DNA of 64,000 nucleotides from Escarpia spicata (Eukaryota > Annelida > Polychaeta > Sabellida > Siboglinidae). Shown one piece after another: positions 21,592 to 54,340 of the stretch. The DNA lies in assembly GCA_963995525.1 (NCBI GenBank), contig OZ023210.1:62960826-63024825 (forward strand), written 5' to 3'. Positions within the stretch are counted from its first letter, which is position 1, and every line of letters begins with the position of its first letter. A program made the translations under genes and the position numbers. The notes under the pieces are model-generated. The model was given only the letters and a program-made list of their open reading frames with translations. It was not told the DNA's origin and made no database searches.

Positions 21592-21622
<31 letters not shown>

Positions 21623-22062
21623 ATGTGTGTGTGTGTGCGCGCGCATGTGTGTGCATGCGTGTGTGCGAACATAAATTTACGAGAGCGATCGTACTGCGTG
21701 CTTGCATACCTATAATTAAGCATGCGTACATGCTTCTACGGATATGTAAAAGCGTGTGTGTGTGCGCGCGCATATACGCGAATATAAAATAAATTACAAC
21801 ACGTCGGCTTTGTGCAAAATTGACGACATAGGACGACACTGCACATGGTAAAAGTTTGTCTAAACGGCAATTGGCAGTCCACATAGCACTCACAGTGTCT
21901 AAGCTAGACAGGCATACCTGTACTTGCTGTTACGACATACATTGTGTCTGCTAGCCTAAGGGACAGTAACCACAGTCAATTGGGGAATCAGTGGCGTCAG
22001 CGGACATAGTTCGAGTACATTCCCCGTCTGTAAACTGTATTATACATTTCTGTTGGTTCTAG
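20133..22062 (+). other. Intron of the claudin/CACNG-like gene
   Basis: A GT...AG intron of 1930 bp that joins exons of matching phase (one base plus two bases of an Ala codon). It contains a GT/GCGT microsatellite at about 21478-21665. I see no other element in it. Confidence 0.7.
21478..21668. repeat. (GT)n/(GCGT)n/(GCAT)n microsatellite
   Basis: Alternating purine-pyrimidine tract with GCATGC, GTGCGT and GTGTGT runs inside the intron. It has Z-DNA-like alternation. Cys/Val or His/Thr open frames across it are artefacts. Confidence 0.92.
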
Positions 22063-22316
22063 CTGGCGCCGTCTTCATCAGCGGCGAAGTTTTCATCCAG
22101 TCCGTCGAATACGAGGAGGACTACCTGCGAGCGAGGTACCCACGCGGCGCCTCCCACCACTACGGATTCTCATTCGCCTTCGCCGTCCTCACCGTCGTCA
22201 TCTACGTCGCCGCCAGCGTCGTCTTCTTCGTGTACGGCCGCAAGCGCAAGGGAGAGAAGGCCGCCACAGAGCAGGAGGCGCGCGAGAACGAACCCGTCAT
22301 CATCGGGCGCACGTGA
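22063..22316 (+). CDS. Claudin/CACNG-like four-TM protein, terminal coding exon
   Basis: The exon follows the acceptor TTGGTTCTAG (AG at 22061-22062) and ends at TGA 22314-22316. Read through the junction it gives AGAVFISGEVFIQSVEYEED, the rest of TM3 and an extracellular loop. Then come RYPRGASHHYGFSFAFAV and a fourth hydrophobic helix ending FFVYGRKRKGEK, with a short charged tail (EARENEPVIIGRT). The YGFSF motif before TM4 resembles the YGWSF-type motif of CACNG and claudin-like proteins. The tail has no obvious PDZ-binding end (it ends GRT). Codon use is much more GC-rich than the flanking DNA, which supports real coding. The polyadenylation site was not identified. With the exon at 19995 this covers about the C-terminal 130 residues, slightly more than half of a typical family member. 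Confidence 0.75.
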
Positions 22317-25159: not shown

Positions 25160-27830
25160 TCAAGCTAAGGACCTACATGTATATAAACCTAATAAAATAT
25201 ACTTGGTAAGATTGAGATACTTCATAAAAGCACAGAGTTGAGATGGTGATACAGACCTAACTAATAAACAACAAAATGGATTACATCTCAGTAAATTGGT
25301 CTTACAGCTCTGACAGCCTGTGGATAAAAAACTTCTGCCGAAGCGTGAGGCGCGAGTTTTCAGTGCGCTGTAGCGGCGGCCTGACGGAGGCAGGGTGAAA
25401 AGATAGTTTGTTGGGTGGGAGGTGTCACGTGCAATGTGATCAGCATGTCTGATTAGCCGCTGCTGGTAGAGAGTATCCACAGAGGGCAAATCTTTTCCAA
25501 CTATTTTGGAGGCAGTTTTGTTCACTCTGTTCAATTTCCCGTTGTCACGGACATACACGCTACCAAACCAACTCTGTAATAGAGAAGGTCAAAACGCTTT
25601 CAATCACACCTTTGTAGAAGTTTACCATAATCTGACTACTCACACCAAACGCTTTGAGACGCCTGAGGAAATAAAGCCGCTATTGTGCTTTTTGGACAAG
25701 GTTTTCTGTGTTTTTCTCCCATTTAAAAGCGGAGGAGATGGTTGTGCCTAAAATTTTGAAATTATCTACAATTTGAACTGTTTACCATGAATATCCAGCG
25801 GGAGAGGAGTGGTTTTGTCTCTCCTGAAATCAACGATTATTTGTTTAGTTTGTCATGTGTTCAGTTCCAAATTGTTTTCATCACAACATACTGCTAGTTT
25901 TTGAACCTGGTCGCGGTGCTGTGACTCGTCAGAGTTTGTGATTAGACCTACGACTGTTGTGTCATCTGCAAACTTTGGTGGTGTTGTGGCTGGCTGTAGA
26001 GTCATGGGTAAAGAGTGAGTTCAAACAAGGGGAGTGAACTCAACCCTGGGGTGTGCCCGTAAGTGATAAACGAGGACAGGTGAACGCCAACTTTAACAAT
26101 CTGTGGACGGCTTAGGAGAACGTCAAGGATCCACAGGTAAATATGTGGCAATTTATGAAACAGTTTAGATGGGACAATAGTGTTGAAAGCCGAGCTGTAG
26201 TCTACACACAATAGTCTAGCATACGTATTTGGCTGTTCAAGATGTTGAAGAGAATGGAAGAGACCGAGAGAGACAGCGTCTTCAACAGACCTGTTCTCAC
26301 GGTAGGCAAACTGAAATGGATCTAAGCCTTTCAAAAAGCGAAGCACCAGTCGCTCAAGCGACTTCATTACAACATATGTCAGAGCAAAAGGTCTGTAGTC
26401 GATTAGACATGACACTTTGTTTTTCTTTGGCACAGGAATAATGGTACTCTTTTTAAGACAATGAGGTACATTATACAGACTGAGTGACAAGTTGAATATG
26501 TCTGTAAAAACGCCTGCTAACTGGTCTGCACACTGTTTCAAAAGACACGGTGGTATGCCACCAGGACCGGCGGCCTTTCTGCCATTCAGGCGCTGAAAGA
26601 CCGACTTGACACCGGACTGCTCAACTATGAAGGATGGAAACTGATTGTCACCAAGCTCAGACATAAGGGAAGGAGCAGAGTTATGTATGTCAAACCACCC
26701 GTAGTACTCATTGAAAGTATCAGGCAGAGTGGCTTTGTCAGTATCGACAGACTTTGATGTCGATTTATTATAATAATAGTCGGTTATCTTCTGTATCTCA
26801 CCCTATAATTTCTTCTGAAGGCAACGTGCTTCTCTCGCAACTTGCGTCGCGTGTCGCCATTGAACCAGGGCTTGTCATCTGCGTAGCTTTCGATGGTCTT
26901 GGTCGGAATGAAGAGATCCTCACAGAAAGTGACATAGTCACATACAACATCGGTGTACTCATTGACGTCGGAGGCAGCATGCTTGAACACATCCCTGTCG
27001 GTACATTCAAAGCAGCCGCGGAGGATTCTATCGCATCCACTGTCCACTGCTATTTTGGTTTCTCACATTTAAGTTTCTGTTTGTAGATTGATACAATGTA
27101 AATCATCGCATGATCGGAGTACCCCAGCGATGCACGAGGAAACGAAGGTATGCTCCTTTGATAGACGTATAGCAGTGATCAAGGATCTTGTCTCCTCTTG
27201 TGGTATACGTGATCTGCTGAGTATAGTTTGGCATTTCTTTACGAAAGTTTGCCTTGTTAAAGTCACCAGCAACAATGTCAAGAAAGTCAGGGTTTGCGTT
27301 CTCTACCTCGGTGACTATGTCCGACAGATGAGCATCAGCAGTGTCTGTGTTGGCCTGGGGTGGAATATACACTGCAATCAAAATCACAGAAGAAAATTAT
27401 CTCGGTAGATAGAATGGACGGCTGTCAACGGGAAGTGTCTCTATGTCACAAGAACAAGTTTTTGACAGTACCTTGACATCACGGGACCAGCGATCATTGA
27501 TAAGAAAAAAACACCACCGCCCCGGGCTTTAATCGTCTCGTCGCAGGACCGGTCGCCTCTGTACATGGAAAGCCCGGAGGGCTGAACTGTTGAATCAGGG
27601 ACGCTGGAATCGAGCCAGGTCTCCGTGAACCAAACCAAAAACAGAACAGTCTTGTACTCTCTTTTTGTTTGTAGATTACAAAACAGTTCATCTGTTGCGC
27701 AACGATCGAACGTTGGAGAGAAAAATCGCTGGCAGCGGCGAACGTAAATCCCGTCGGTGAAACCTTGCCAAGGCCCCACCACGACGGCGTAATTTTCGCC
27801 CGTGCCGGCCATGAGCACTGTCTGAGCGAA
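25160..27830 (-). mobile_element. Decayed L2/CR1-like non-LTR retrotransposon (ORF2 EN-RT)
   Basis: Read on the - strand, fragments in several frames appear in correct order. The endonuclease start is WFTETWLDSSVPD (about 27640). Endonuclease core follows: ILIAVYIPPQANTDT (about 27385), VAGDFN (about 27270) and LDHCYTS (about 27190). The EN-RT linker is at 27047-26784 (TKTIESYADDKPWFNGDTRR). RT fingers and palm are at 26664-26002 (GRKAAGPGGIPP, DYRPFALT, YARLLCVDYSSAFNTI). The catalytic motif FADDTTVVGLI has its FADD at 25961-25972. Thumb is KAQ.RLYFLRRLKAFGV, and the C-terminal region at 25558-25160 carries LFTLPPSGRRYSALK. Function in the family: target-primed reverse transcription. At least six frame breaks and a scrambled PQG block (TYGHTPGLSSLPLF) make this a dead copy. 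Nearly the whole ORF2 span is present. The clade assignment (Jockey superclade, L2/CR1/Rex-like) is by resemblance. Confidence 0.85.
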
Positions 27831-32872: not shown

Positions 32873-33835
32873 CGCTTGTGGGAAATACGTAGTTCAATGT
32901 GTAGTCACTAGTTGTTGTACGTGTTTTGAATACTGTCTATTGTATCTCAATCTGTGATCTACAAACATCTCCCTTTGTAAATTTATCTTTACAAGTTTTG
33001 TTCACCGAAGGTAAATTATTGTTAAATTGTTAAGCTCGTGGTACGCTAGATGGCACAAATCAACAACGGAATCGCCAACTAAAATGTGGCGCGAAGTGTA
33101 GATTTACTTGCAAATGTACAACGTGTGAAACACACAATACACGCTCGCTCACGTAGAAATAATAAATTACAAAGGGTGAACTTCAGACATTGTAAATACA
33201 AGATTATTCTCGATAAACATATTGATGGAATGACAAGTTCTGACCTATCCATCACGTGACATATTGTCTAGCAACAAGGCATCCGCACGCCAAGCTTACA
33301 AAATGGCTGACGCACATGGGAATCCGTCGGACATTCAGTCGTATATATTTTGTTGAAATTCTTGCTCCAAATAGTTTGACAAAACATAGTGCAAATTTGG
33401 TTGTGCAATAAATGTACACGGGAAAGAATTATTTAGTTGCACAATTTGACGGAGCCTAGCTTTGATTGTGACGTTATACTCTGGTTCCGTCAATTGTAGT
33501 AGGCATACTCCATCACAAACAAATTGCATTCTCAAGCAATTAAAAAGCATTAACGATACAACACAACAACGGTAAGAGTATCACAATTAAATTGACACAG
33601 ATTGCGACTAGACAAGTTGTGTGACACCAGAAGACATAATGCTGTATCAATGACATCGAGGTGTAAGGCCGAGGCACCCTACTTGTTGGAACACAAGATA
33701 TTCATTATTCGTATGTAAAACAATCCGTGTCCGTCGAAAGAATCGTACGTAGTAGTAACATATTTAAGAGCATAGTAAAAGTAAAAAATTTGAAAGATTA
33801 CTTTACTATATTCTATCTTATTTCCCACTGCATTG
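32873..33835. other. Intergenic sequence, nothing recognised
   Basis: AT-rich. One 71-codon - strand frame (33550-33335) is not recognised and has no supporting splice or family evidence. Confidence 0.4.
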
Positions 33836-34162
33836 AACAGTATAGGGGTTTTTATAACAACAGTACAGGGGTTCTTGTGACAACAGTACAGGTGTTCTTA
33901 TGACAACAGTATAGGTGTTCTTATGACAACAGTATAGGGGTTCGTATGACAACAGTACAGGGGTTCTTGTGACAACAGCACAGGGGTTCTGATGACAACA
34001 GTATAGGGGTTCTTATGACAACAGTATAGGGGTTCTTATGACAACAGTACAGGGGTTCTTGTGACAACAGTACAGGGGTTCTTATGACAACAGTACAGGG
34101 GTTCTTGTGACAACAGTACTGGGGTTCTTGTGACAACAGTACAGTGGTTGTTATGACAACTA
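33836..34162. repeat. 24-bp minisatellite, about 13.5 copies
   Basis: The unit is GACAACAGTATAGGGGTTCT plus TAT, with variants (GTAC, TTGTGAC). Because 24 is a multiple of three, the - strand stays open for 93 codons with an 8-residue repeat. This is a period artefact, not a gene. Confidence 0.95.
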
Positions 34163-34773
34163 GCAGCAACGAGGCCTTATTGTACATCATTATAAAACAC
34201 ATGTTACATCAATATAATATATTGGGCCTGATAGTTGTATGATTACAAACACTACACAAGTATTTCGGTTTATCCGAATGTTTGGGGCAATTCCTATATA
34301 ATATACGGCTGTTTTGCCGTCAGTCGGAAATAAGAATTTGTTACGTACAATCAACTTATGCATTTATGTACAACTTAGATAAACACACTGCTGAAAACAG
34401 CTGTCAACGGAAAGACGATATCGTAAGTAGGTCTTATTATAGCGCACCAAATATACACGTGGGTGGAACATGAATTTTTTGCATACCTGTCGCTGTCGAA
34501 TGTACAGTATTGGTTAGGTTTGCACAGTCGTACACATTTTTATATTGTCTGGTATGTGTTCATATAACTTGGTGTCGCATGTTTCTCAGTTCCATCAGTG
34601 CAAATAGGACGAACTAACATGTCAGCCACTTCATCTGGTTGACACTGTGAAGCTCCCAGTATACAAGGTGCGATCACGCAGACAGGCGAGAAATCACGCT
34701 AAGAAGAAATGTCAAAGCGTTGCTGAAACAACAACGAACTTGGATACATCTATAGTTTGTGTCATCCCGGCGC
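34163..34773 (-). other. Probable 3' UTR / downstream region of the DOK-like gene
   Basis: This follows the TAG stop on the - strand. No canonical polyadenylation signal was identified on that strand in this stretch, so the transcript end is not placed. Confidence 0.35.
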
Positions 34774-35189
34774 CTAGACACTCGTCCTGGCGGGATGGGG
34801 CGGGGGCACTGGTCGGGAAGACAAGGGCAGACTGTGGTGTAAGAGAGGGTTGCGTTGACGAGGCGGCGGGGGAGGAGGGGGCGATAATAGAGGGAAGTCG
34901 TCGTCACTCTCGTCGTTGTCCCCATTCGCTGGAGTCGCCTCCCGTCGCCCGTACTCGGCGCCGCTCTGGCTCGCGTTGTCGGAACAAATCTCGCTTATGA
35001 AGACGGCCGAATCAGCGCTGCTGTTCTCCGAATCGCGATGCTCGTGTGTTTTTTGAGATTCTTGAGTCGCCTCTTGTTGCTGTTGCTGTTGCTGTTGCGT
35101 CTGGTCTGGCAGCTGTTGTTGCGGCTCTTGTGGCTTTGGCGGCCGAGTTTTCTGATGTCGTTGTCGCTGTGCCAGCGGTGGAGGACTTT
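34774..35189 (-). CDS. DOK-family adaptor, terminal coding exon (Pro/Gln-rich tail)
   Basis: The exon follows the acceptor CTTTCCTTTTCAG on the - strand and ends at TAG (34776-34774). It starts with two bases (AA) that complete a GAA codon with the single G ending the exon at 38979, so the phase matches. The 137-residue tail begins SPPPLAQRQRHQKTRPPKP. It then has a glutamine run with eight consecutive Q, a Ser-rich block (DSENSSADSAVFISEICSDN), one tyrosine in a GAEYGRR context, an acidic run (DNDESDDDFPLL), seven prolines in a row and a Pro/Arg-rich end (RPVPPPHPARTSV). Low-complexity, proline-rich tails are normal for DOK adaptors, where they offer SH3 and SH2 docking sites. Only one tyrosine is visible in this exon, fewer than in vertebrate DOK1/2. 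The terminal position is inferred from the in-frame stop. Confidence 0.72.
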
Positions 35190-35397
35190 CTGAAAAGGAA
35201 AGCGTCACATTGGTATTATAATAATCGCACGTTGGAGCTTTGGTATGCTCATTTCGTTTTAATCGATAATATAAAGAAATACATAAAACGACGAGTTTCG
35301 TATGACATATTAAATAAGGAACTGACATTACATCAGTTGTTATTATATTTTTATAATAATAATAATAACTTTTTATGCCTACATCCTATGAAGCTAT

Positions 35398-35925
35398 TAT
35401 GTCGCCATTGACATCAACACCGTGTGGGAGGAAGAAACAATATATGTATTATGTCGCCATTGACATTAACACCGTGTGGGAGGAAGAAACAATATATATA
35501 TTATGTCGCCATTGACATTAACACCACGTAGGAGGAAGAAACCATATTTATTATGTCGCCATTGACATTAACACCGTGTGGGAGGAAGAAACCATATCTA
35601 TTATGTCGCCATTGACATTAACGCCGTGTGGGAGGAAGAAACAATATATATATATTAGGTCGCCATTGACATTAACACCGTGTGGGAGGAAGAAACCATA
35701 TCTATTATATCGCCATTGACATTAACGCCGTGTGGGAGGAAGAAACCATATCTATTATGTCGCCATTGACATTAACACCGTGTGGGAGGAAGAAACCATA
35801 TATATTATGTCGCAATTGACATTAACACCATGTGGGAGGAAGAAACCATATTTGATATGTCGCCATTGACATTAAAACCATGTGGGAGAAAGTAACCATA
35901 TTTATTATGTCGCAATTGACACGAT
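35398..35925. repeat. ~50-bp minisatellite, about 10.5 copies
   Basis: Units carry ATGTCGCCATTGACATTAAC and then ACCGTGTGGGAGGAAGAAAC, ending in a variable ATATAT/ATCTAT stretch. It starts about 200 bp from the acceptor of the terminal DOK exon. Confidence 0.95.
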
Positions 35926-36258
35926 GGCTGCACCACGCCAGTACAACAGCAACAAAACAACAGAGTTCTCCAGTCTCCAAAACACGGGGTAAACAGAAAA
36001 GACAAATCTCAACATCAGTAAGCAACATTAACGTTGTCATCAGAAGGGTGGATGCGCCAAGGAGCTAACGTGGATAACCTAGGTCATTGACGCAAGTTTT
36101 TGAATGACAGCAGGATTATGTAATATTTCTGACAAAAAAGAGCAATTTCCAGAGTCGGCGCTGCAACAGAGAACGTGCATCTCTCTACTAGTACCAGGTC
36201 CCCATTTAAGTACTGCAGACGCTGCAACTGCATATAATCACATATATAAAACATTGTT

Positions 36259-36321
36259 GGGAGCGAGACTTGAACTCGTCCAGATGGTTCCAGTTAAACG
36301 TCCCGACCACGCCACGTTTCC
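36259..36321 (-). mobile_element. tRNA-like SINE head or tRNA relic
   Basis: On the - strand, TGGCGTGGTCGGGACG resembles box A. GAGTTCAAGTCTCGCTCCC, about 30 bases on, resembles box B plus the 3' acceptor strand of a tRNA. The 5' acceptor strand does not pair well, so this is not a functional tRNA. A tRNA-SINE remnant is the likeliest reading. Confidence 0.35.
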
Positions 36322-36471
36322 ACGTGCTGCTGACTCACGGCACGAAACGGCGCACATCTGCTTTTGTAGTTTATGGCAAGTAACTATGCGGTGATTGAGT
36401 AGGCGATAACTGGTTGACAGCCAAACGATGCACGTTAAGTCCGTATGACTATTACAAGAACACGAGGGTGA

Positions 36472-38072
36472 CAATACGGTCAAGTTGAATGTTGCACCTA
36501 CAATACGATCAAGTTGAATGTTGCACCCACAATACGGTCAAGTTGAATGTGGCACCCACAGTACGATCAAGTTGAATGTTGCACCCACAATACGGTCAAG
36601 TTGAATGTTGCATCCACAATACGGTCAAGTTGAACGTGGCATCCACAGTACGGTCAAGTTGAATGTTGCACCCACAATACGGTCAAGTTGAATGTGGCAC
36701 CCACAATACGATCAAGTTGAATGTTGCACCCACAATACGGTCAAGTTGAATGTGGCACCCACAATACGAACAAGGTGAATGTTGCATCCACAGTACGATC
36801 AAGTTGAATATTGCACCCACAGTACGATCAAGTTGAATGTTGCATCCACAGTACGAACAAGTTGAATGTTGCACACACAATACGGTCAAGTTGAATGTTG
36901 CATCCACAATATGGTCAAGTTGAATGTGGCACCCACAGAACGATCAAGTTGAATGTTGCATCCACAGTACGAACAAGTTGAATGTAGCACCCACAATACG
37001 GTCAAGTTGAATGTTGCACCCACAATACGGTCATGTTGAATGTGGCACCCACAGTACGATCAAGTTGAATGTTGCATCCACAGTACGAACAAATTGAATG
37101 TAGCACCCACAATACGGTCAAGTTGAATGTTGCACCCACAATACGGTCAAGTTGAATGTTGCACCCACAGTACGAACAAGTTGAATGTAGCACCCACAAT
37201 ACGGTCAAGTTGAATGTTGCACCCACAATACGGTCAAGTTGAATGTGGCACCCACAGTACGATCAAATTGAATGTTGCACCCACAATACGTTCAAGTTGA
37301 ATGTGGCACCCACAATACGATCAAGTTGAATTTGGCACCCACAATACGATCAAGTTGAATGTGGCACCCACAATACGGTCAAGTGGAATGTGGCACCCAC
37401 AGTACGATCAAGTTGAATGTTGCACCCACAATACGGTCAAGTGGAATGTGACACCCACAATACGGTCAAGTTGAATTTTGCACCCACAGTACTATCAAGT
37501 TGAATGTGGCACCCACAATACGGTCAAGTTGAATGTTGCATCCACAATACGGTCAAGTTGAATGTTGCACCCACAATACGGTCAAGTTGAATGTGGCACT
37601 CACAATACGGTCATGTTGAATGTTGCACTCACAATACGGTCAAGTTGAATGTGGCACTCACAATACGGTCAAGTTGAATGTTGCACCCACAATACGGTCA
37701 AGTTGAATGTTGCACCCACAATACGGTCAAGTTGAATGTGGCACCCACAATACGATCAAGTTGAATTTGGCACCCACAATACGATCAAGTTGAATGTGGC
37801 ACCCATAATACGGTCAAGTGGAATGTGACACCCACAATACGGTCACGTTGAATGTGGCACCCACAGTACGATCAAGTTGAATGTTGCACCCACAATACGG
37901 TCAAGTTGAATGTTGCATCCACAATACGGTCAAGTTGAATGTGGCACCCACAATACGGTCAAGTTGAATTTGGCACCCACAATACGATCAAGTTGAATGT
38001 GGCATCCACAATACGGTCAAGTTGAATTTGGCACCCACAATACGGTCAAGTTGAATGTGGCACCCACAATAC
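36472..38072. repeat. 29-bp minisatellite, about 55 copies
   Basis: The unit is CAATACGGTCAAGTTGAATG plus TTGCACCCA. Common variants are GGTC/GATC, GTTGC/GTGGC and CACCC/CATCC. It lies wholly inside the DOK-like intron. Open frames of 74 codons on the - strand are period artefacts. Confidence 0.97.
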
Positions 38073-38978
38073 TTCAAATCGTATACAAAGCATTCAATTA
38101 GTAAACACAGCTACTACGTAGGCAGGTAGGGCAAACCGCAAGTTCCTGGAATGTATTTCTGCCATTGTCACCTGGTGTCTGGTTTCCGCAATTAACCCTG
38201 CAAGTTGAACGAAATAAGACTGAATCTGGGAATGGCCTGCTCATACGGTTCCCACCACGGTTAGAGACGGCTATTGTACGTAACGAAACAGACAAGGTCA
38301 CCTGAATGATAGTCTAGCACTATCGTTACACGCGTGTTTGCAGTGAATACATCAGTCCGTGGGTATTACCATTAAGAGACGATGTCGGTCTGACGACGCC
38401 AATCTCGTCTGAGGTGTCCGAGTTGACAGGAAGTAGATATAGATACGGGTCAACTGAAAAAAAAACGAATAACGACATCGATAAATGTCAACGTTTCCGT
38501 GGGTGACATCTAGAATAAAGTTTAAGCATATATGTGCAGGATAGAGCGTAGTTATTACTAAGATATTCATTGTAGAAAACAACCCATCAGAATACTAACA
38601 CGAGAACTTGTAAATTTACAAAGCCATGTGAGTAAAGGATTGTCCGATTTGTCAGTCGGCTGCAGTGCTAAGCTCCATCGAGGCCAACGTATGGCTACGA
38701 TCGAGTTGGTCAAATAGGAGCTGTGTCCAACTTGTTCGTGTGTCGGCCGCAACTTTGAGGCAGCGGCTAACGCCAGGTGTACACGTCGTGACCTTTCATC
38801 AAAGCTAAACTCTGGATTGGCACGAGTCAATGTGAATATGTCATACCCGCGGTTGGTCCACTCAATCTTGAAACAACCTGTTTAAAACGAGATTTGTACC
38901 AACTTCCGGGTATTCAGTAACTTTCGATTTAGTTTTAATTTAATATAAAATAAGAAACAACGTATTTGACATGTATAC
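38073..38978 (-). other. Intron sequence without recognised features
   Basis: The rest of the DOK-like intron between the 29-bp array and the donor. Two - strand open frames (38301-38098, 38830-38567) show no family resemblance and are not called. Confidence 0.4.
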
Positions 38979-39136
38979 CTTCTTTATTGGTCCTCAGCCT
39001 GTCCATTTCAGACTCAAGGTCTGTGCCCGTGTTCTGCCGAGGAAGGTTCGTCTTTACTGCTTCGCTAACTTCCTTGACGATCTCACTGCCGTATCTCGTG
39101 CGGAACAAATACGTGCCCACTTTACTGCCGCACTGC
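38979..39136 (-). CDS. DOK-family adaptor, exon encoding the end of the PTB domain
   Basis: The acceptor on the - strand is GCATGTGTTGTAG (AG at 39138-39137) and the donor is GAAG|GTATAC (GT at 38978-38977). The exon supplies the third base of a Val codon and then QCGSKVGTYLFRTRYGSEIV, followed by KEVSEAVKTNLPRQNTGTDL and a charged linker ending RLRTNKE. This matches the last strands and C-terminal helix of the IRS-type PTB domain (CGSG.G.F.F.T..G.EI+..V..A+). Both junction phases fit the neighbouring exons: two bases (GT) at 40353 plus G here, and one G here plus AA at 35189. PTB domains of this type bind NPxpY-like motifs on activated receptors at the membrane. Confidence 0.8.
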
Positions 39137-40352
39137 CTACAACACATGCACACTACGGTAATACTCACACGAGTAAACGAAAATGAATGGCGTATAATTG
39201 AGACTTCAGATAGTTAAAATTAATGGATGGCAGCGCAAAGTGTATAATGTACCGCAAGATGTCATATTTTGAAACGAGGAAGTTGTGTTGACGTCGTCAG
39301 AGACTCTGTTAATGTATTACAGAAAATTAACTGCAGATGGCAACGAAGCAGGGGCATATTTGAGGGTGGGAGCATTAGAGCATAAACCCCATTTAGCTTT
39401 ATAAACAAGTTCATATATAACCTTATGCGCCACTAGGCCCTATATTTAACATGGCAAATTAGTGGCAACGTAAACATTTGGACCCGATGCCTTTCTGATA
39501 TCCTAAGATCGTCAGTTGTAGGAAGATTCATCTACATCGACGTCGGGTTGACATCGTTAGAACATCAACCATGTGAATTGACAACCATGTGATAATGGCG
39601 ACAATATTTATGAATGCGACGACGAAAGTGACGTACAATGACGGCCATTATGCGATACAGTCAATATCATGCAAACTATGACAACTAAAACGATGACGAC
39701 GACTGCGTAATGACAGTGACGGTCAAAAATCCATCACGAAAACTTACAACGTTGTTACCAAGGCTACATTAAATGGATCCAGAATCTGACGTCAAACGTT
39801 TGAGCCAAAACTCAGCGGGGTCAAAATGTCAACAAAACATACGACTGATCCGACAGCTTCATATGTGTGGCGGCCATTTGTTAAGCTTGACGGGTGGTTG
39901 CAAGGCAAACGGTGACGTAATGGATCCATCAGTTTATGACGCTACCCAGTTGTCACTACATACACATCGCGTCAAGCGTCATCAGAACATGACGCCAGTT
40001 GTGACTGCGTGACATGTCACTACTTACACATTGGCGACAAGCGTCATCAGAACATGACGCCAGTTGTGACAATGTGATATGTCATTACATACACGTTGGC
40101 GTCAAGCGTCATCAGAACATGACGCCAGTTGTGACTGCGTGACATGTCACTACTTACATATTGGCGACAAGCGTCATCAGAACATGATGCCAGTTGTGAC
40201 TGCGTGACATGCCACTACTTACACGTTGACGTCTAGCGTCACCAGAACATGACAACAGTTGTGACGTCGTGACTTGTCACTACTTATATGTTGGCGTCTA
40301 GTGTCACCAGAACATGACGCCAGTTGTGACGTCGTGGCGTGTTACTACTTAC
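39137..40352 (-). other. DOK-like gene intron carrying a donor-derived 65-bp array
   Basis: 1216 bp with GT donor at 40352-40351 and AG at 39138-39137. The donor-proximal 400 bp are a tandem array that repeats the exon end and splice donor (see the 65-bp repeat). The rest, 39137-39944, shows no other feature. Confidence 0.72.
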
Positions 40353-40378
40353 ACGTTGGCGTCTAGCGTCACCAAGTC
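39945..40378. repeat. 65-bp minisatellite made of exon end plus splice donor, ~6.5 copies
   Basis: Marker motifs lie 65 bp apart (AAGCGTC at 39974, 40039, 40104). On the - strand each unit contains a version of GTGACGCTAGACGCCAACGT followed by GTAAGTAGT, then GACATGTCAC-type and CAACTGGCGTCATGTTCT sequence. The most 3' (+ strand) copy is the real end of the PTB exon (40353) with its GTAAGT donor. Decoy donors keep GTAAGT in the copies near 40020, 40150 and 40215, read GTATGT near 39955 and 40085, and have lost the GT near 40285. Confidence 0.9.
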
Positions 40379-40578
40379 ATCACCCGTCATCTCCTCGCTC
40401 TTGAACTTGCGGATGTGCTCTAGCGGCCACTGTATGTAGGCCATCTGTTGGCCGACTTTCCGTAAGATGACGTCAGCTCCCCGTATGTTCATCACGTACT
40501 CGCCAGACAGTCCATTACGTTCGGATGCCTCCGTCGGCTCTACCAGTACCGCGTACCCGCCCAGCGACTCTCGGTTCT
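40353..40578 (-). CDS. DOK-family adaptor, exon encoding the N-terminal PTB half
   Basis: The acceptor on the - strand is CCCGTGTCCCCAG (AG at 40580-40579) and the donor is AACGT|GTAAGT (GT at 40352-40351). The 226-bp exon starts with two bases of a codon and reads NRESLGGYAVLVEPTEASER, then NGLSGEYVMNIRGADVILRK and YIQWPLEHIRKFKSEEMTGD. The V.PTEASER.GL.G.Y motif, a hydrophobic strand, and a WP...+R+F block are the signature of the IRS-type PTB domain in DOK proteins (DOK1-3 have TEASER.GL.G.Y and WPY..LRR+). DOK proteins are membrane-recruited adaptors that dampen receptor tyrosine kinase signalling through RasGAP and related partners. An N-terminal PH domain is expected in upstream exons, but none was found up to 64000. 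The exon end is also the seed of the 65-bp tandem array. Confidence 0.82.
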
Positions 40579-41130
40579 CTGGGGACACGGGACAACGTAG
40601 TATTAGTGGTGTATCCACAAAGACACCTTCACTGTGTTACAAGAAATATAGCTTTATTCGTTTAAGAAGATATCATAAAGTGTAGCACTGACGACGCAGG
40701 TACCTGTCCTAAATACTGTAAATATTGTAATTTATAGCAGCAAGTTAGTGTAAATAATAAATAAAAGTTAAAGAAGATAGTAGAACCAAGTTTAGACCCA
40801 AAAATAACGTTAATTGTTTTGTTTGTGGCACTGGTGGTTTTATACCAAAATATTTTAACGAAGTCTTTGGTTTGGATTTGTTAGTTTGAGATACGAAGCC
40901 TTTGCAACCTACTTCAATGAATGTTAATTATTACTTCTAACTTTGCTCTGTTGTTGTTTATGTCTTAGATGAATGTGGCACATTGTTAGTTTTAAATAGA
41001 TCGTCATTTTATTAGTAAATAATGTACACGGAGGTACGTCCTTGTATAGCGATGTGTCCAGTCCTTAGAACTGTCATTAGAATACCATCTCGGCTTTTCG
41101 TCAAAACATTCAGTGACTTTGTAGTAAGTG
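40579..41130 (-). other. DOK-like upstream intron, no features
   Basis: AT-rich spacer between the PTB exon acceptor and the 70-bp array. I see nothing else in it. Confidence 0.45.
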
Positions 41131-44100
41131 CGTGAAGAGTGTTCCTTCACGTGTAGTCACCACGATATGGCATCAGCTACTCAGTTATACAGATGGGGTG
41201 AACTAAGAGTGTTCCTTCACGTGTAGTCGCCACGATATGGCATCAGCTACACAGTTATACAGATGGGGTGAACTAAGAGTGTTCCTTCACATGTAGTCAC
41301 CACGACGTGGCATCAGCTACTCAGTTATACAGATGGGGTGAACTAAGAGTGTTCCTTCACGTGTAGTCACCACGACGTGGCATCAGCTACTCAGTTATAC
41401 AGATGGGGTGAACTAAGAGTGTTCCTTTACGTGTAGTCGCCACGATGTGGCATCAGCTACACAGTTATACAGATGGGGTGAACTAAGAGTGTTCCTTCAC
41501 GTGTAGTCACCACGATATGGCATCAGCTACACAGTTATACAGATGGGGTGAACTAAGAGTGTTCCTTCACGTGTAGTCACCACGATATGGCATCAGCTAC
41601 TCAGTTATACAGATGGGGTGAACTAAGAGTGTTCCTTCACGTGTAGTCGCCACGATATGGCATCAGCTACACAGTTATACAGATGGGGTGAACTAAGAGT
41701 GTTCCTTCACATGTAGTCACCACGACGTGGCATCAGCTACTCAGTTATACAGATGGGGTGAACTAAGAGTGTTCCTTCACGTGTAGTCACCACGACGTGG
41801 CATCAGCTACTCAGTTATACAGATGGGGTGAACTAAGAGTGTTCCTTTACGTGTAGTCGCCACGATGTGGCATCAGCTACACAGTTATACAGATGGGGTG
41901 AACTAAGAGTGTTCCTTCACGTGTAGTCACCACGATATGGCATCAGCTACACAGTTATACAGATGGGGTGAACTAAGAGTGTTCCTTCACGTGTAGTCAC
42001 CACGACGTGGCATCAGCTACACAGTTATACAGATGGGGTGAACTAAGAGTGTTCCTTCACGTGTAGTCGCCACGACGTGGCATCAGCTACTCAGTTATAC
42101 AGATGGGGTGAACTAAGAGTGTTCCTTCACGTGTAGTCACCACGACGTGGCATCAGCTACTCAGTTATACAGATGGGGTGAACTAAGAGTGTTCCTTCAC
42201 GTGTAGTCACCACGACGTGGCATCAGCTACTCAGTTATACAGATGGGGTGAACTAAGAGTGTTCCTTCACGTGTAGTCGCCACGACGTGGCATCAGCTAC
42301 TCAGTTATACAGATGGGGTGAACTAAGAGTGTTCCTACACGCGTAGTCGCAACGATTTGGCATCAGCTACTCAGTTATACAGATGGGGTGAACTAAGAGT
42401 GTTCCTTCACGTGTAGTCGCCACGATGTGGCATCAGGTACTCAGTTATACAGTTGTGGTGAACTAAGAGTGTTCCTTCACGTGTAGTTGCCACGATATGG
42501 CATCAGCTACTCAGTTATACAGATGGGGTGAACTAAGAGTGTTCCTTCACGTGTAGTCGCCACGACGTGGCATCAGCTACTCAGTTATACAGATGGGGTG
42601 AACTAAGAGTGTTCCTTCACGTGTAGTCGCCACGATATGGCATCAGCTACTCAGTTATACAGATGGGGTTAACTAAGAGTGTTCCTTCACGTGTAGTCAC
42701 CACGATATTGCATCAGCTACTCAGTTATACAGATGGGGTGAACTAAGAGTGTTCCTTCACGTGTAGTCATCACGATGTGGCATCAGCTACTCAGTTATAC
42801 AGTTGGGGTGAACTAAGAGTGTTCCTTCACGTGTAGTCGCCACGATGTGGCATCAGCTAGTCAGTTATACAGATGGGGTGAACTAAGAGTGTTCCTTCAC
42901 GTGTAGTCGCCACGATGTGGCATCAGCTACTCAGTTATACAGTTGGGGTGAACTAAGAGTGTTCCTTCACGTGTAGTCGCCACGATGTGGCATCAGCTAC
43001 TCAGTTATACAGATGGGTTGAACTAAGAGTGTTCCTTCACGTGTAGTCGCCACGACGTGGCATCAGCTACTCAGTTATACAGATGGGGTGAACTAAGAGT
43101 GTTCCTTCACGTGTAGTCGCCACGATGTGGCATCAGCTACTCAGTTATACAGATGGGGTGAACTAAGAGTGTTCCTTCACGTGTAGTCGCCACGATGTGG
43201 CATCAGCTACTCAGTTATACAGTTGGGGTGAACTAAGAGTGTTCCTTCACGTGTAGTCGCCACGATGTGGCATCAGCTACTCAGTTATACAGATGGGGTG
43301 AACTAAGAGTGTTCCTTCACGTGTAGTCGCCACGACGTGGCATCAGCTACTCAGTTATACAGATGGGGTGAACTAAGAGTGTTCCTTCACGTGTAGTCGC
43401 CACGACGTGGCATCAGCTACTCAGTTATACAGATGGGGTGAACTAAGAGTGTTCCTTCACGTGTAGTCGCCACGATGTGGCATCAGCTACTCAGTTATAC
43501 AGATGGGGTGAACTAAGAGTGTTCCTTCACGTGTAGTCGCCACGATGTGGCATCAGCTACTCAGTTATACAGTTGTGGTGAACTAAGAGTGTTCCTTCAC
43601 GTGTAGTTGCCACGATGTGGCATCAGCTACTCAGTTATACAGATGGGGTGAACTAAGAGTGTTCCTTCACGTGTAGTCGCCACGACGTGGCATCAGCTAC
43701 TCAGTTATACAGATGGGGTGAACTAAGAGTGTTCCTTCACGTGTAGTCGCCACGATATGGCATCAGCTACTCAGTTATACAGATGGGGTTAACTAAGAGT
43801 GTTCCTTCACGTGTAGTCACCACGATATTGCATCAGCTACTCAGTTATACAGATGGGGTGAACTAAGAGTGTTCCTTCACGTGTAGTCATCACGATGTGG
43901 CATCAGCTACTCAGTTATACAGTTGGGGTGAACTAAGAGTGTTCCTTCACGTGTAGTCGCCACGACGTGGCATCAGCTACTCAGTTATACAGATGGGGTG
44001 AACTAAGAGTGTTCCTTCACGTGTAGTCGCCACGACGTGGCATCAGCTACTCAGTTATACAGATGGGGTGAACTAAGAGTGTTCCTTCACGTGTAGTCGC

Positions 44101-47100
44101 CACGATGTGGCATCAGCTACTCAGTTATACAGATGGGGTGAACTAAGAGTGTTCCTTCACGTGTAGTCGCCACGACGTGGCATCAGCTACTCAGTTATAC
44201 AGATGGGGTGAACTAAGAGTGTTCCTTCACGTGTAGTCGCCACGACGTGGCATCAGCTACTCAGTTATACAGATGGGGTGAACTAAGAGTGTTCCTTCAC
44301 GTGTAGTCGCCACGACGTGGCATCAGCTACTCAGTTATACAGATGGGGTGAATTAAGAGTGTTCCTTCACGTGTAGTCGCCACGATGTGGCATCAGCTAC
44401 TCAGTTATACAGATGGGGTGAACTAAGAGTGTTCCTTCACGTGTAGTCGCCACGATGTGGCATTAGCTACTCAGTTATACAGTTGGGGTGAACTAAGAGT
44501 GTTCCTTCACGTGTAGTCGCCACGATGTGGCATCAGCTACTCAGTTATACAGATGGGGTGAACTAAGAGTGTTCCTTCACGTGTAGTCGCCACGATATGG
44601 CATCAGCTACTCAGTTATACAGATGGGGTGAACTAAGAGTGTTCCTTCACGTGTAGTCGCCACGATATGGCATCAGCTAGTCAGTTATACAGATGGGGTG
44701 AACTAAGAGTGTTCCTTCACGTGTAGTCGCCACGATATGGCATCAGCTACTCAGTTATACAGATGGGGTGAACTAAGTGTGTTCCTTCACGTGTAGTCGC
44801 CACGATATGACATCAGCTACTCAGTTATACAGATGGGGTGAACTAAGAGTGTTCCTTCACGTGTAGTCATCACGATATGGCATCAGCTACTCAGTTATAC
44901 AGATGGGGTGAACTAAGAGTGTTCCTTCACGTGTAGTCGCCACGATATTGCATCAGCTACTCAGTTACACAGATGGGGTGAACTAAGAGTGTTCCTTCAC
45001 GTGGAGTCACCACGATATGGCATCAGCTACTCAGTTGTACAGATGGGGTGAACTAAGAGTGTTCCTTCACGTATAGTCATCACGATATGGCATCAGCTAC
45101 TCAGTTATACAGATGGGGTGAACTAAGAGTGTTCCTTCACGTGTAGTCATCACGATATGGCATCAGCTACTCAGTTATACAGATGGGGTGAACTAAGAGT
45201 GTTCCTTCACGTGTAGTCGCCACGATATCGCATCAGCTACTCAGTTATACAGATGGGGTGAACTAAGAGTGTTCCTTCACGTGTAGTCACCACGATATGG
45301 CATCAGCTACTCAGTTATACAGATGGGGTGAACTAAGAGTGTTCCTTCACGTGTAGTCATCACGATATGGCATCAGCTACTCAGTTATACAGATGGGGTG
45401 AACTAAGAGTGTTCCTTCACGTGTAGTCGCCACAACGTGGCATCAGCTACTCAGTTATACAGATGGGGTGAACTAAGAGTGTTCCTTCACGCTTAGTCGC
45501 AACGATTTGGCATCAGCTACTCAGTTATACAGATGGGGTGAACTAAGAGTGTTCCTTCACGTGTAGTCGCCACGATGTGGCATCAGCTACTCAGTTATAC
45601 AGATGGGGTGAACTAAGAGTGTTCCTTCACGTGTAGTCGCCACGATGTGGCATCAGCTACTCAGTTATACAGTTGTGGTGAACTAAGAGTGTTCCTTCAC
45701 GTGTAGTTGCCACGATGTGGCATCAGCTACTCAGTTATACAGATGGGGTGAACTAAGAGTGTTCCTTCACGTGTAGTCGCCACGACGTGGCATCAGCTAC
45801 TCAGTTATACAGATGGGGTGAACTAAGAGTGTTCCTTCACGTGTAGTCATCACGATGTGGCATCAGCTACTCAGTTATACAGTTGGGGTGAACTAAGAGT
45901 GTTCCTTCACGTGTAGTCGCCACGATGTGACATCAGCTACTCAGTTATACAGATGGGGTGAACTAAGAGTGTTCCTTCACGTGTAGTCGCCACGATGTGG
46001 CATCAGCTACTCAGTTATACAGTTGGGGTGAACTAAGAGTGTTCCTTCACGTGTAGTCGCCACGATGTGGCATCAGCTACTCAGTTTTACAGATGGGGTG
46101 AACTAAGAGTGTTCCTTCACGTGTAGTCGCCACGACGTGGCATCAGCTACTCAGTTATACAGATGGGGTGAACTAAGAGTGTTCCTTCACGTGTAGTCGC
46201 CACGACGTGGCATTAGCTACTCAGTTATACAGATGGGGTGAACTAAGAGTGTTCCTTCACGTGTAGTCGCCATGATGTGGCATCAGCTACTCTGTTATAC
46301 AGATGGGGTGAACTAAGAGTGTTCCTTCACGTGTAGTCGCCACGATGTGGCATCAGCTACTCAGTTATACAGATGGGGTGAACTAAGAGTGTTCCTTCAC
46401 GTGTAGTCGCCACGATGTGGCATCAGCTACTCAGTTATACAGTTGGGGTGAACTAAGAGTGTTCCTTCACGTGTAGTCGCCACGATGTGACATCAGCTAC
46501 TCAGTTATACAGATGGGGTGAACTAAGAGTGTTCCTTCACGTGTAGTCGCCACGATGTGGCATCAGCTACTCAGTTATACAGATGGGGTGAACTAAGAGT
46601 GTTCCTTCACGTGTAGTCGCCACGATATGGCATCAGCTACACAGTTATACAGATGGGGTGAACTAAGAGTGTTCCTTCACGTGTAGTCGCCACGATATGG
46701 CATCAGCTACTCAGTTATACAGATGGGGTGAACTAAGAGTGTTCCTTCACGTGTAGTCACCACGATATGGCATCAGCTACTCAGTTATACAGATGGGGTG
46801 AACTAAGAGTGTTCCTTCACGTGTAGTCGACACGATGTGGCATCAGCTACTCAGTTATACAGATGGGGTGAACTAAGAGTGTTCCTTCACGTGTAGTCGC
46901 CACGATATGGCATCAGCTACTCAGTTATACAGATGGGGTGAACTAAGTGTGTTCCTTCACGTGTAGTCGCCACGATATGACATCAGCTACTCAGTTATAC
47001 AGATGGGGTGAACTAAGAGTGTTCCTTCACGTGTAGTCATCACGATATGGCATCAGCTACTCAGTTATACAGATGGGGTGAACTAAGAGTGTTCCTTCAC

Positions 47101-48900
47101 GTGTAGTCGCCACGATATTGCATCAGCTACTCAGTTACACAGATGGGGTGAACTAAGAGTGTTCCTTCACGTGGAGTCACCACGATATGGCATCAGCTAC
47201 TCAGTTGTACAGATGGGGTGAACTAAGAGTGTTCCTTCACGTATAGTCATCACGATATGGCATCAGCTACTCAGTTATACAGATGGGGTGAACTAAGAGT
47301 GTTCCTTCACGTGTAGTCATCACGATATGGCATCAGCTACTCAGTTATACAGATGGGGTGAACTAAGAGTGTTCCTTCACGTGTAGTCGCCACGATATCG
47401 CATCAGCTACTCAGTTATACAGATGGGGTGAACTAAGAGTGTTCCTTCACGTGTAGTCACCACGATATGGCATCAGCTACTCAGTTATACAGATGGGGTG
47501 AACTAAGAGTGTTCCTTCACGTGTAGTCATCACGATATGGCATCAGCTACTCAGTTATACAGATGGGGTGAACTAAGAGTGTTCCTTCACGTGTAGTCGC
47601 CACAACGTGGCATCAGCTACTCAGTTATACAGATGGGGTGAACTAAGAGTGTTCCTTCACGCTTAGTCGCAACGATTTGGCATCAGCTACTCAGTTATAC
47701 AGATGGGGTGAACTAAGAGTGTTCCTTCACGTGTAGTCGCCACGATGTGGCATCAGCTACTCAGTTATACAGATGGGGTGAACTAAGAGTGTTCCTTCAC
47801 GTGTAGTCGCCACGACGTGGCATCAGCTACTCAGTTATACAGATGGGGTGAACTAAGAGTGTTCCTTCACGTGTAGTCATCACGATGTGGCATCAGCTAC
47901 TCAGTTATACAGTTGGGGTGAACTAAGAGTGTTCCTTCACGTGTAGTCGCCACGATGTGACATCAGCTACTCAGTTATACAGATGGGGTGAACTAAGAGT
48001 GTTCCTTCACGTGTAGTCGCCACGATGTGGCATCAGCTACTCAGTTATACAGTTGGGGTGAACTAAGAGTGTTCCTTCACGTGTAGTCGCCACGATGTGG
48101 CATCAGCTACTCAGTTTTACAGATGGGGTGAACTAAGAGTGTTCCTTCACGTGTAGTCGCCACGACGTGGCATCAGCTACTCAGTTATACAGATGGGGTG
48201 AACTAAGAGTGTTCCTTCACGTGTAGTCGCCACGACGTGGCATTAGCTACTCAGTTATACAGATGGGGTGAACTAAGAGTGTTCCTTCACGTGTAGTCGC
48301 CATGATGTGGCATCAGCTACTCTGTTATACAGATGGGGTGAACTAAGAGTGTTCCTTCACGTGTAGTCGCCACGATGTGGCATCAGCTACTCAGTTATAC
48401 AGATGGGGTGAACTAAGAGTGTTCCTTCACGTGTAGTCGCCACGATGTGGCATCAGCTACTCAGTTATACAGTTGGGGTGAACTAAGAGTGTTCCTTCAC
48501 GTGTAGTCGCCACGATGTGACATCAGCTACTCAGTTATACAGATGGGGTGAACTAAGAGTGTTCCTTCACGTGTAGTCGCCACGATGTGGCATCAGCTAC
48601 TCAGTTATACAGATGGGGTGAACTAAGAGTGTTCCTTCACGTGTAGTCGCCACGATATGGCATCAGCTACTCAGTTATACAGATGGGGTGAACTAAGAGT
48701 GTTCCTTCACGTGTAGTCGCCACGATATGGCATCAGCTACTCAGTTATACAGATGGGGTGAACTAAGAGTGTTCCTTCACGTGTAGTCGCCACGATGTGG
48801 CATCAGCTACTCAGTTATACAGATGGGGTGAACTAAGAGTGTTCCTTCACGTGTAGTCGCCACGATATGGCATCAGCTACTCAGTTATACAGATGGGGTG
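41131..48900. repeat. 70-bp minisatellite, about 111 copies, one CACGTG per unit
   Basis: Units start 70 bp apart (GTTCCTTCAC at 41141 and 41211). Each carries AAGAGTGTTCCTTCACGTGT, then AGTCGCCACGATGTGGCATC and AGCTACTCAGTTATACAGAT plus GGGGTGAACT. Nearly every unit contains the palindrome CACGTG. Rare variants recur at multiples of the unit: AACTAAGTGTG at 44771 and 46941 (2170 bp, 31 units), AGTTGTGGTG at 42451, 43571 and 45671 (16 and 30 units). Block duplication is therefore clear. By position it lies in an upstream intron or the 5' region of the DOK-like gene. Confidence 0.97.
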
Positions 48901-49960
48901 TACTGGAGCAACGTAGAGTGTGAACAGAATAGCTCAAACTTAGAAACGGCTGCAAGATAAGTCAAACCCGGATTCTCTCAGCCGAGAGGCGCATGTTTTC
49001 ATCGCTATCTTGTCGATAATATTATTTCATGCAAATGTCTTATAGAAGACATGGGAAGCTGTAGGAAAGATCGTGATGACGACAGTGGCACTGCTGTTGT
49101 CGCAGTAATATGTCGTAACAACAGCAAGAGCAAGTGCGCCATACAGCAAGAACACTCCAACACCAATCGACATCACCAACACCAATCAACATCACCAACA
49201 CCAATCAACATCACCAACAACCCCCGACAATAGACACATAAGACATGTATGTAAACGACAACCCAGACGCAATGCAAGTTTTATGCTTCTGAAAGAAGAG
49301 TTCCTCTGTCATATCTAGTATAACGCTAAAACGCAATAATATTATTATTATGAAAGCATGAGTCATCCCCATCGCTGTAGCCAGTGTTGACATTATACAA
49401 GGCAGTCTAAACGACGTTCATTAACGTCAACGCCTGCCAACGAACGACATTAAATCGCATGATGCAATTGTTCCAGCACAAATAATTGATATGTTTCGCA
49501 ATATCTCGAGGGGAGGGAGACCGGTATAAAGTGCTAACGAGAAATTGACTTGCTTCAGTGAACGAGCGTTATCATCACGATAGTTCTGTGTAATGCAGAT
49601 AATAGCGATTTCGGACATAACCATCGCTAAACAGCGCAGTACATCACTTAGAGCTTACATTGCCTGAAAGGTTTCAACACCAGTGAAAGGCTTTCAGGAT
49701 GTTTTATTGCGTCGTAGTTTCATGTTACCCAGTCGCGTAGTTAGCACACATGGACGATAAGGGTGATCTTGTGAAAATGTCATCCCTGAGGTAACGATGA
49801 TGAATGAGTAAAAATACTAGAACGAGGATAAACAATTAAGTGAAAAAAAATGACGGGGCGGTTGAAGAGTGGCCGAATGGATTAACACATGATATTTATG
49901 TGTGATAAATGTGGATGGGACGGAGGGACTAAACAAATGAAGGAATGAAGGAATGGATTA
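48901..49960. other. Spacer, no gene recognised
   Basis: Contains a 19-bp tandem repeat of ACACCAATCAACATCACCA (about 3 copies, 49157-49217). Otherwise I see nothing that can be supported. No PH-domain exon for the DOK-like gene was found here. Confidence 0.45.
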
Positions 49961-51300: not shown

Positions 51301-51500
51301 NNNNNNNNNNNNNNNNNNNNNNNNNNNNNNNNNNNNNNNNNNNNNNNNNNNNNNNNNNNNNNNNNNNNNNNNNNNNNNNNNNNNNNNNNNNNNNNNNNNN
51401 NNNNNNNNNNNNNNNNNNNNNNNNNNNNNNNNNNNNNNNNNNNNNNNNNNNNNNNNNNNNNNNNNNNNNNNNNNNNNNNNNNNNNNNNNNNNNNNNNNNN
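51301..51500. other. Assembly gap of 200 N
   Basis: Exactly 200 N between a GA-rich and a CA-rich tract. The round size suggests a placeholder, so the true length is unknown. Confidence 0.99.
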
Positions 51501-52560: not shown

Positions 52561-53500
52561 CAATTTGGCAAAGAGTACTGTATTCTGTAATTTTATGTAA
52601 AACATATTTTGGCATAACTAATAAATCCTTGTAATGTGTTAAAATGTTGTTCTTTATCTGAAGTGCAGTATTGTTTATTAGCATGGAATATCAAACCTAA
52701 TGTATCGTTTGGCAAAGTCATGTTTTGCCCTTTTTGTATGGATGTTGTCATGTATCCGTGTATTAATGTTGTGAACATTTTTATTTAGCGTAAATGGTAA
52801 GTTTTGCAAATATATTGGTAATGTCATGTACACATGGTTAGTTTCTTAAACAGCGGCTCAGCATGTGCATTATATTTAGCTAAGCATATTATTCTAATCG
52901 CTTTTTTGTAGTTTGATGATTCGGTTACATTTAAAACCTCATAATCATTAGGCCATAATTAATGTATGGTAACATTAATGAGCAAAGTAAATTTTTTATT
53001 TATTGGCAAAAATCGTTTTAGTTTGTTTAATATACCTATCAATTTAGAACATTTGATTGAACTATTTGTAATGTGAATGTCCCAGTTTATGTTTTCTTGC
53101 AAAGTCACCCCAAGAAGATTAAAGTTTTGGACTCTTTTCTATTCTGGTTTCATCAATCTTAAGCAGGAAATTGTTAACTTATTTGTTTCCTAGTTTGTGT
53201 ATTATATACTTGGATTTCTTTATATTTAAAGACAGTTTATTTACTTTCAGCCATTCATTTACCTTGTTTAATTCTGTATTTAAATGTTGTTCGACGTATT
53301 TTGGACATAATATTATGTTTAAAGATTGGATTGTTGTAAATAAAGTTGTAACATCCGCATACATTACGTATTTAAATATTCCACTTGACTTTGGTAAAAG
53401 TGGGCCCAGCATAGAACCCTGTGGCACACCTGTAGTAATAGGCAGGGTTTCAGAAATAGTCTCGTTGTAAATGACGTACTGTGCAAGACTGCCGTCCCGA
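52560..53500 (-). mobile_element. 5'-truncated LINE, RT palm to C-terminus, YADV mutant
   Basis: The - strand frames give, in order: YVIYNETISETLPITTGVPQ and GSMLGPLL (about 53480-53395), then KYVMYADVTTLF with the catalytic block at 53361-53350. Next are LNTELNKVNEWLKVNKLSLN (about 53280-53220), a thumb block FLGVTLQENINWDIHI (about 53110-53050), KKAIRIICLAKYNAHAEPLF (about 52900-52840) and a C-terminal NTLQGFISYAKICF ending at the stop at 52593. This is the order of a Jockey/CR1-superclade RT. The second catalytic Asp of YADD is Val, and sequence between GPLL and the YADV motif is missing. Frameshifts near 53180, 52960 and 52700 confirm a dead copy. The 5' end is truncated near 53490, next to another LINE relic in the same orientation. 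Confidence 0.8.
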
Positions 53501-54340
53501 GCTACGCGCTCCAGACGACAGGCGGACAAGGAAGCCTTTGGCTTATCGAGAGTCCAACAATTTTCCAACTTCGTATAGCCCGCCCGCCCTCCCCAGATAG
53601 CTGTCAATTTTATTTTTGAACATATTCACACTGCTAGCACCAACACAATCATCAGCACCCGCATTGTGCTTGTATGCAATATTCCAAATGAGGTATTGCT
53701 TTGTACAGTGGTACAATTAACTGCTTCTCCTTATATGTGATAGTTCTTCTAACCAGCCCTAGTATTGGGTTACCCTTTGAAGCAGCAATTCTGGATTGCT
53801 CTGAAACTTTCATGTCAGCACAAACTGTCACTTCTAAATCCTTTTCCGTTATTGTTTTGCCCAATATAGTATCCCCCATTATGTATTCGTTGTCCACATT
53901 TCCATGTCCTATGAGAATGCATTAACATTTCCCAAAATTGAACAACATTTGCCATTTTTCAGACCATTTGACTAATTTGGCTAGACGATCTTGTAAAGTA
54001 TGTTTATCTGCATCTGTTTTAACTCTTCTTAACACTTTTGTATCGGTTGGGAATTTCAGTGCTTTGCTTGATATATCATCAATCAAATCATATATATCAG
54101 GAATAATATAGGTCCCAACACCGACCCCTGTGGCACTCCATTTAATCTGGTTTCCAGTTTAAAATATACTCTCTGCAATTACTATTACTCTGTAATATTA
54201 ACTTTCCTTCATTATGGTAGTCCAGTCTATGCGTGCTAAATAAGTTCTCATCTGTCTGTTTATATTTGCCTTTGTTGAAGGTTGGTTCCAAAACATGTTG
54301 AGTAGGAAAACAGTCCTGTATTACAAGCAAACTTGCATAT
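53500..54340 (-). mobile_element. CR1-like LINE relic with internal deletions
   Basis: The - strand order is as follows. An endonuclease C-terminal block, CFPTQHVLEPTFNKG (about 54310-54270), comes first, then GVPQGSVLGPILF (54139-54101). The catalytic region reads FPTDTK where FADDTK is expected (54053-54042). LVKWSEKWQMLFNFGKC (about 53980-53930) and EKDLEVTVCADMKVSEQSRI (about 53840-53780) follow, then LYKAIPHLEYCIQA (about 53700-53660) and SVNMFKNKIDSYLGR (about 53625-53585). These are typical CR1 landmarks (ADDTK, L.W..KW.M.FN..KC, HLEYC.Q.W, N.FK..LD). Sequence between the endonuclease and the PQG motif, and between HLEYC and the C-terminus, is missing, so the copy carries two large internal deletions plus a catalytic-site change. 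Confidence 0.8.

Follow-up and report, generated by a model that had tools for sequence, protein, structure and literature searches.

In a DOK-type gene of the annelid Escarpia spicata, a 65-bp minisatellite of 6.5 copies starts within a coding exon and continues into the adjoining intron (about 39951-40372, minus strand), and the question arises how the end of an exon together with its splice donor came to be repeated, and what the repeated donors mean for splicing of the gene. The locus was studied within a stretch of 64,000 nucleotides, here called the window, to whose first letter all coordinates refer unless a contig is named. We consider it likely, with a probability of roughly 85%, that a tandem duplication across the exon-intron boundary, followed by amplification, gave rise to the minisatellite, and that the first donor is spliced while the array itself is nearly neutral.

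Four coding exons of the gene were placed on the minus strand. Exon A (40353-40578, 226 nt) encodes the first part of the PTB domain, ends with the codons for LVTLDAN plus GT, and is directly followed by the true donor, GTAAGT, of a phase-2 intron (40347-40352). The intron is 1216 nt long (40352-39137) and leads to exon B (38979-39136, 158 nt), which encodes the second part of the domain (QCGSKVGTYLFRT...). Exon C (38370-38453, 84 nt) is part of the same four-exon open reading frame, and exon D (34774-35189) encodes a C-terminal tail that ends with TSV and a stop codon. When exons A, B, C and D were joined, a single reading frame was obtained, and its sole stop is the terminal one.

The protein-level comparisons place the end of exon A at the same point. 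The exon A reading frame matched the IRS-type PTB domain family PF02174 with 24.7 bits, above the cut-off of 22, and exons A and B together matched the solved PTB domains of DOK1 and DOK2 with E values of 6.3e-9 to 8.8e-8. The exon A/B junction is gapless in the comparison with the DOK1 and DOK2 domains, the single 4-residue gap lying upstream of it, and VTLDA is invariant in all four sequences of the alignment (A1). Two full-length orthologues read across the junction as LDANAQCGSK (P0004) and LDASVQCGSK (P0005), compared to LDANVQCGSK in Escarpia spicata. P0004 (480 aa) is probably a spliced transcript, because its contig is just 2803 bp long; P0005 (482 aa) is LSAT2_000866 of Lamellibrachia satsuma. 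A further relative, P0001, is a reading frame that ends with LDANG, as it would if the frame continued past the corresponding exon end into a donor beginning with GTAA. The preliminary description had put the end of the PTB exon at this position, and the DOK1/2 alignment, the orthologues and the clean four-exon frame agree with it. No relatives of exon A were found among the viral contigs searched.

Both the DOK-type gene and a claudin-like gene of the window match the siboglinid annelid Lamellibrachia satsuma at 85-86%. A search of the genome with P0005 returned four matches which, apart from a few overlapping residues, correspond to different parts of the protein, and thus the search revealed a single copy of the gene. 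The orthologues P0004 and P0005 also contain a PH domain (PF00169). Orthologue residues 1-37 were matched at C6:63031270-63031380, on the contig whose positions 62960826-63024825 form the window; residues 38-196, which make up most of the PH domain, were matched neither in the genome, nor in the window, nor in the 30 kb beyond it. Since the genome search also missed exon C, which is present in the window, this miss is weak evidence. At 51301-51500 the window has 200 consecutive N, a gap that may account for the missing PH-domain exons.

The array was reported by TRF with a period of 65, 6.5 copies and 86% matches at 39951-40371. Cutting the minus strand into 65-base units from position 40372 yields six full copies and one partial copy. 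Copy 0 (40308-40372) consists of the last 20 exonic bases and 45 intronic bases that begin with the true donor. In the copies that follow, donor coordinates are those of the first base of the donor on the minus strand. Copy 1 (40243-40307) has lost the GT and carries ATAAGT at 40287. Copy 2 (40178-40242) has a decoy GTAAGT at 40222, whose 9-mer is the same as that of the real donor, and copy 3 (40113-40177) has a decoy GTAAGT at 40157, the use of which would retain 195 nt. A weak decoy, GTATGT, is found in copy 4 (40048-40112) at 40092, and copy 5 (39983-40047), identical to copy 3 at 64 of 65 bases, has a decoy GTAAGT at 40027. Partial copy 6 (39951-39982) ends the array with a second weak GTATGT, at 39963, which would retain 389 nt if used. 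The counts given in the preliminary description for the six copied donors, namely three GTAAGT, two GTATGT and one without GT, are therefore correct, and five decoys bear a GT.

The copy-by-copy alignment bore out the claim that the repeat copies the exon end as well as the donor. Compared to copy 0, the exonic 20 bases of copies 1 to 5 match at 18, 19, 15, 18 and 16 positions and the intronic 45 bases at 39, 38, 40, 36 and 40 positions, with 54 to 57 of 65 bases matching over whole units. Summed over copies 1 to 5, the exonic and intronic parts have diverged alike (86/100 and 193/225 identical). Pairwise identity among the six full copies ranges from 51 to 64 of 65. Copy 4 matches copies 3 and 5 at 56 and 57 bases, and the copy pairs 3+4 and 5+6 can be aligned with each other except for gaps in the partial copy 6. 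A search for the 20-mer GACGCCAACGTGTAAGTAGT with up to 3 mismatches found 6 sites in the window, all of them inside the array, against a mean of 0.00 in 100 shuffles.

Units of the array were found at no second place in the 64-kb window. The segment 39900-40450 matched the 1.06-Gb assembly (1097 contigs) once, at its own position, with repeat counts to be taken as lower bounds. Further degenerate units were sought in the remainder of the intron, 39940-39137, and none stood out: the best score was 19, where resampling gave a mean of 17.9 and 159 of 500 resamplings did as well, and on the other strand the score was 17, equalled by 341 of 500. Another part of the intron outside the array, 39825-39901, is 76% similar to 33279-33360 (E 5.7e-9) and is perhaps a dispersed repeat. 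An Rfam search of 34000-41200 gave no match.

An array lying over an exon end is unsurprising at a locus so rich in tandem arrays. In the window, 22 arrays cover 34191 of 64000 bases. When the 20 arrays of less than 2 kb were placed at random, at least one of nine exon boundaries was covered in 71% of 20000 trials, a rough figure given that simple repeats were included, placements were independent and TRF rows were merged by hand. Extra copies are present at one of the nine boundaries tested in the window, two claudin-like boundaries among the nine having been placed by eye; the other eight showed no copies in the window at E 0.01. A 55-bp satellite array occupies 1-19158 (about 348 copies, 92% matches), and a 70-bp array (111 copies, 96% matches) occupies 41135-48904, beginning 557 bases from exon A on its upstream side. 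The claudin-like gene, of the PMP-22/EMP/MP20 type, lies on the plus strand at 19994-22313 with at least two exons and is 86-90% identical to LSAT2_009453 of Lamellibrachia satsuma; its Pfam match is below the cut-off. Reverse transcriptase or endonuclease-reverse transcriptase fragments lie on the minus strand at 26005-26802, 27106-27396 and 53182-53625; the fragment at 26005-26802 alone exceeds the Pfam cut-off.

Donor strength was then estimated with a vertebrate weight matrix. On this scale the real donor scores 7.10, decoy 2 7.10, decoy 3 7.73 and decoy 5 5.52, while the GTATGT sites score 4.12 and 2.54. Such scoring had been proposed in the preliminary description; it puts decoys 2 and 3 level with or above the real site, and leaves decoy 5 and both GTATGT sites below it. 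When the 140 GT sites between 40630 and 39137 were ranked, decoys 2 and 3 shared the top three places with the real site, and decoy 5 came after two sites that do not belong to the array, 39168 (6.80) and 39747 (6.29). Predicted pairing with U1 is -7.1 kcal/mol for the real donor and -7.1, -7.0 and -7.0 kcal/mol for the GTAAGT decoys. With decoys scoring and pairing like the real site, strength of the 9-mer cannot separate real from decoy. Because decoys 2 and 3 match or beat the real site, competition between donors is possible as far as their sequence goes.

The units of copies 3, 4 and 5 (39983-40177) start with ATGACGC and have GCGTCAT near the end, an inverted repeat by which a unit can fold back. 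Predicted folding of 39946-40420 is better than that of shuffled sequences (z -2.42, 0 of 100 shuffles as good), an excess which the inverted unit ends alone might produce. The idea that RNA structure selects the true donor received no support: the accessibility predicted for the 9-mer is lowest at the real donor among the seven positions (0.0019 compared to 0.0042 to 0.1147). Over positions +1 to +6, only position 4 has a lower predicted accessibility than the real donor. Equal strength of the decoys and low predicted accessibility of the real site mean that neither property explains the choice of the real donor.

The fate of decoy products would be set by the reading frame. When the phase-2 intron is read through, the frame continues as AAC GTG TAA, and the TAA (40349-40351, minus strand) sits inside the true donor. 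This stop would be included in every transcript in which the true donor is skipped, and all decoy products would thus end at DANV. The preliminary description had expected retained lengths in multiples of 65 bp, every third of which would keep the frame. The lengths hold for the earlier decoys and fail for the last, which would retain 389 rather than 390 nt because copy 6 carries an indel. The preservation of frame does not hold, since the only one of the five GT-bearing decoys that would retain a multiple of three, decoy 3 with 195 nt, would yield a truncated product as well.

A regulatory reading was also weighed, in which the decoys compete with the real donor, their products stop at DANV and are destroyed or give a truncated PTB protein, and the copy number of the array tunes DOK output. 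Several of the results above agree with it: GTAAGT is retained in three decoys, two of which (2 and 3) have a matrix score no lower than that of the real site and a predicted U1 pairing within 0.1 kcal/mol of its value, every decoy product would carry the in-frame TAA, and over the 9-mer the decoys have a higher predicted accessibility than the real donor. However, the donor hexamers of copies 1 to 5 are not significantly better kept than the rest of the unit, with 2 mismatches in 30 positions compared to 44 in 295 elsewhere (binomial p 0.30), and thus neither purging nor retention of decoy donors stands out. In addition, two of the six copied donors are weakened and one is dead, and genes of amphioxus that carry arrays of this kind are reported to splice normally (PMC3087553, PMC3902484). 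Beyond the equal strength of decoys and real site, no support for regulation of DOK output was found, and we regard this reading as unlikely.

A broader proposal would join two claims, that the array serves as a splicing rheostat whose setting varies with copy number, and that siboglinid genes often carry exon-boundary minisatellites, in an independent parallel to amphioxus. If it were true, decoys as strong as the real donor would divert part of the pre-mRNA into transcripts with the DANV stop, and more copies would mean less full-length DOK protein. Taken as a whole, this proposal is quite improbable.

We further considered that the repeated sites bind U1 for its own sake, either guarding the intron from premature polyadenylation or titrating U1 locally. 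Counting the real donor, four GTAAGT sites do fall within 331 bases, each with a predicted U1 pairing of -7.0 or -7.1 kcal/mol, but the intron is just 1216 nt long and no tie between the number of sites and a function was found; we regard this role as very unlikely. An assembly artefact, by which the array or its copy number would be misassembled, seems equally hard to credit: the run of N shows that the locus is not closed and orthologue residues 38-196 were not found, but the six full copies differ from one another in a way that simple stutter would not produce, and the array is short, about 420 bases. Least probable of all is an origin of the exon end by recruitment from a pre-existing repeat (exonisation), for although exon A and the array alone share the sequence, the exonic part consists of PTB residues with equivalents in DOK1/2 and in siboglinid-type orthologues, and the search of the 1.06-Gb assembly found no other match.

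The exonic part of the unit encodes conserved PTB residues, and the exon is therefore the source and the array the copy. Under the preferred reading, duplication across the exon A boundary, a 65-bp segment made of 20 exonic and 45 intronic bases would have been duplicated in tandem and then amplified through unequal exchange or slippage. One amplification step was probably a duplication of 130 bp, i.e. of two units, to which the 64/65 identity of copies 3 and 5 and the alignable pairs 3+4 and 5+6 point; we infer the order of the duplications from these similarities. Exon definition and the order of transcription favor a first donor. Splicing would accordingly be expected at the first donor here, because it adjoins the real exon and would be transcribed first, and the remaining copies would simply form part of the intron. 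If a decoy were occasionally used, the resulting mRNA would contain the stop and should be subject to nonsense-mediated decay, and with such products degraded the array could persist nearly neutrally. Most likely it is harmless. The locus also offers a natural test of how the spliceosome chooses among near-identical donors, the 9-mer of decoy 2 being that of the real site at a distance of 130 nt.

Similar arrangements have been described in other animals. Earthworm metallothionein genes carry large minisatellite arrays in intron 1 (PMC12783039); these are likewise intronic and from an annelid, and the accessible text of that report describes no copying of an exon end or donor. In the literature searched, a partial set mostly outside subscription journals, no annelid exon-boundary minisatellite was found. 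When an exon-intron boundary is tandemly duplicated, its splice signals are duplicated with it (PMC4974935). The duplication of splice signals is shared by the Escarpia array, which differs in that no new intron or exon was seen, the extra copies lying within the old intron, and in that its decoy products would carry a stop. In human segmental duplications, variable tandem repeats at exon-intron boundaries are reported to alter splicing and may create novel introns (PMC2812944), and such arrays are thus not always inert. A minisatellite at an exon-intron boundary is common to both cases; the human repeats are said to activate cryptic splice sites and so make introns, whereas the Escarpia copies sit in an existing intron and no new one was seen.

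The closest counterparts are the 'mirages' of amphioxus, minisatellite-like tandem duplications of exon-intron boundaries in Adh3 and in the globin genes BflGb6 and BflGb9, with units of 10-72 bp in Adh3 and 150-160 bp in the globins (PMC3087553, PMC3902484). The latter report adds troponin C to the mirages and likens PGBD5 duplications to them. Mirages are reported to be unstable in length and to vary in copy number, and the data suggest that regular splicing is undisturbed, with use of cryptic sites still possible (PMC3087553, PMC3902484). In mirages and in the Escarpia array alike, the unit comprises the end of an exon together with adjacent intron sequence, one copy is the real boundary, and the splice signal is repeated with many, not all, copies retaining it. 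The mirages come from cephalochordates, whereas the present array belongs to a DOK-type gene of an annelid and was analysed in one genome assembly. It is probably a new and neutral case of mirage-type anatomy, by which exon-boundary minisatellites of this type extend from cephalochordates to an annelid, and the presence of such an array in an annelid suggests that the process by which they form may be general in minisatellite-rich genomes.
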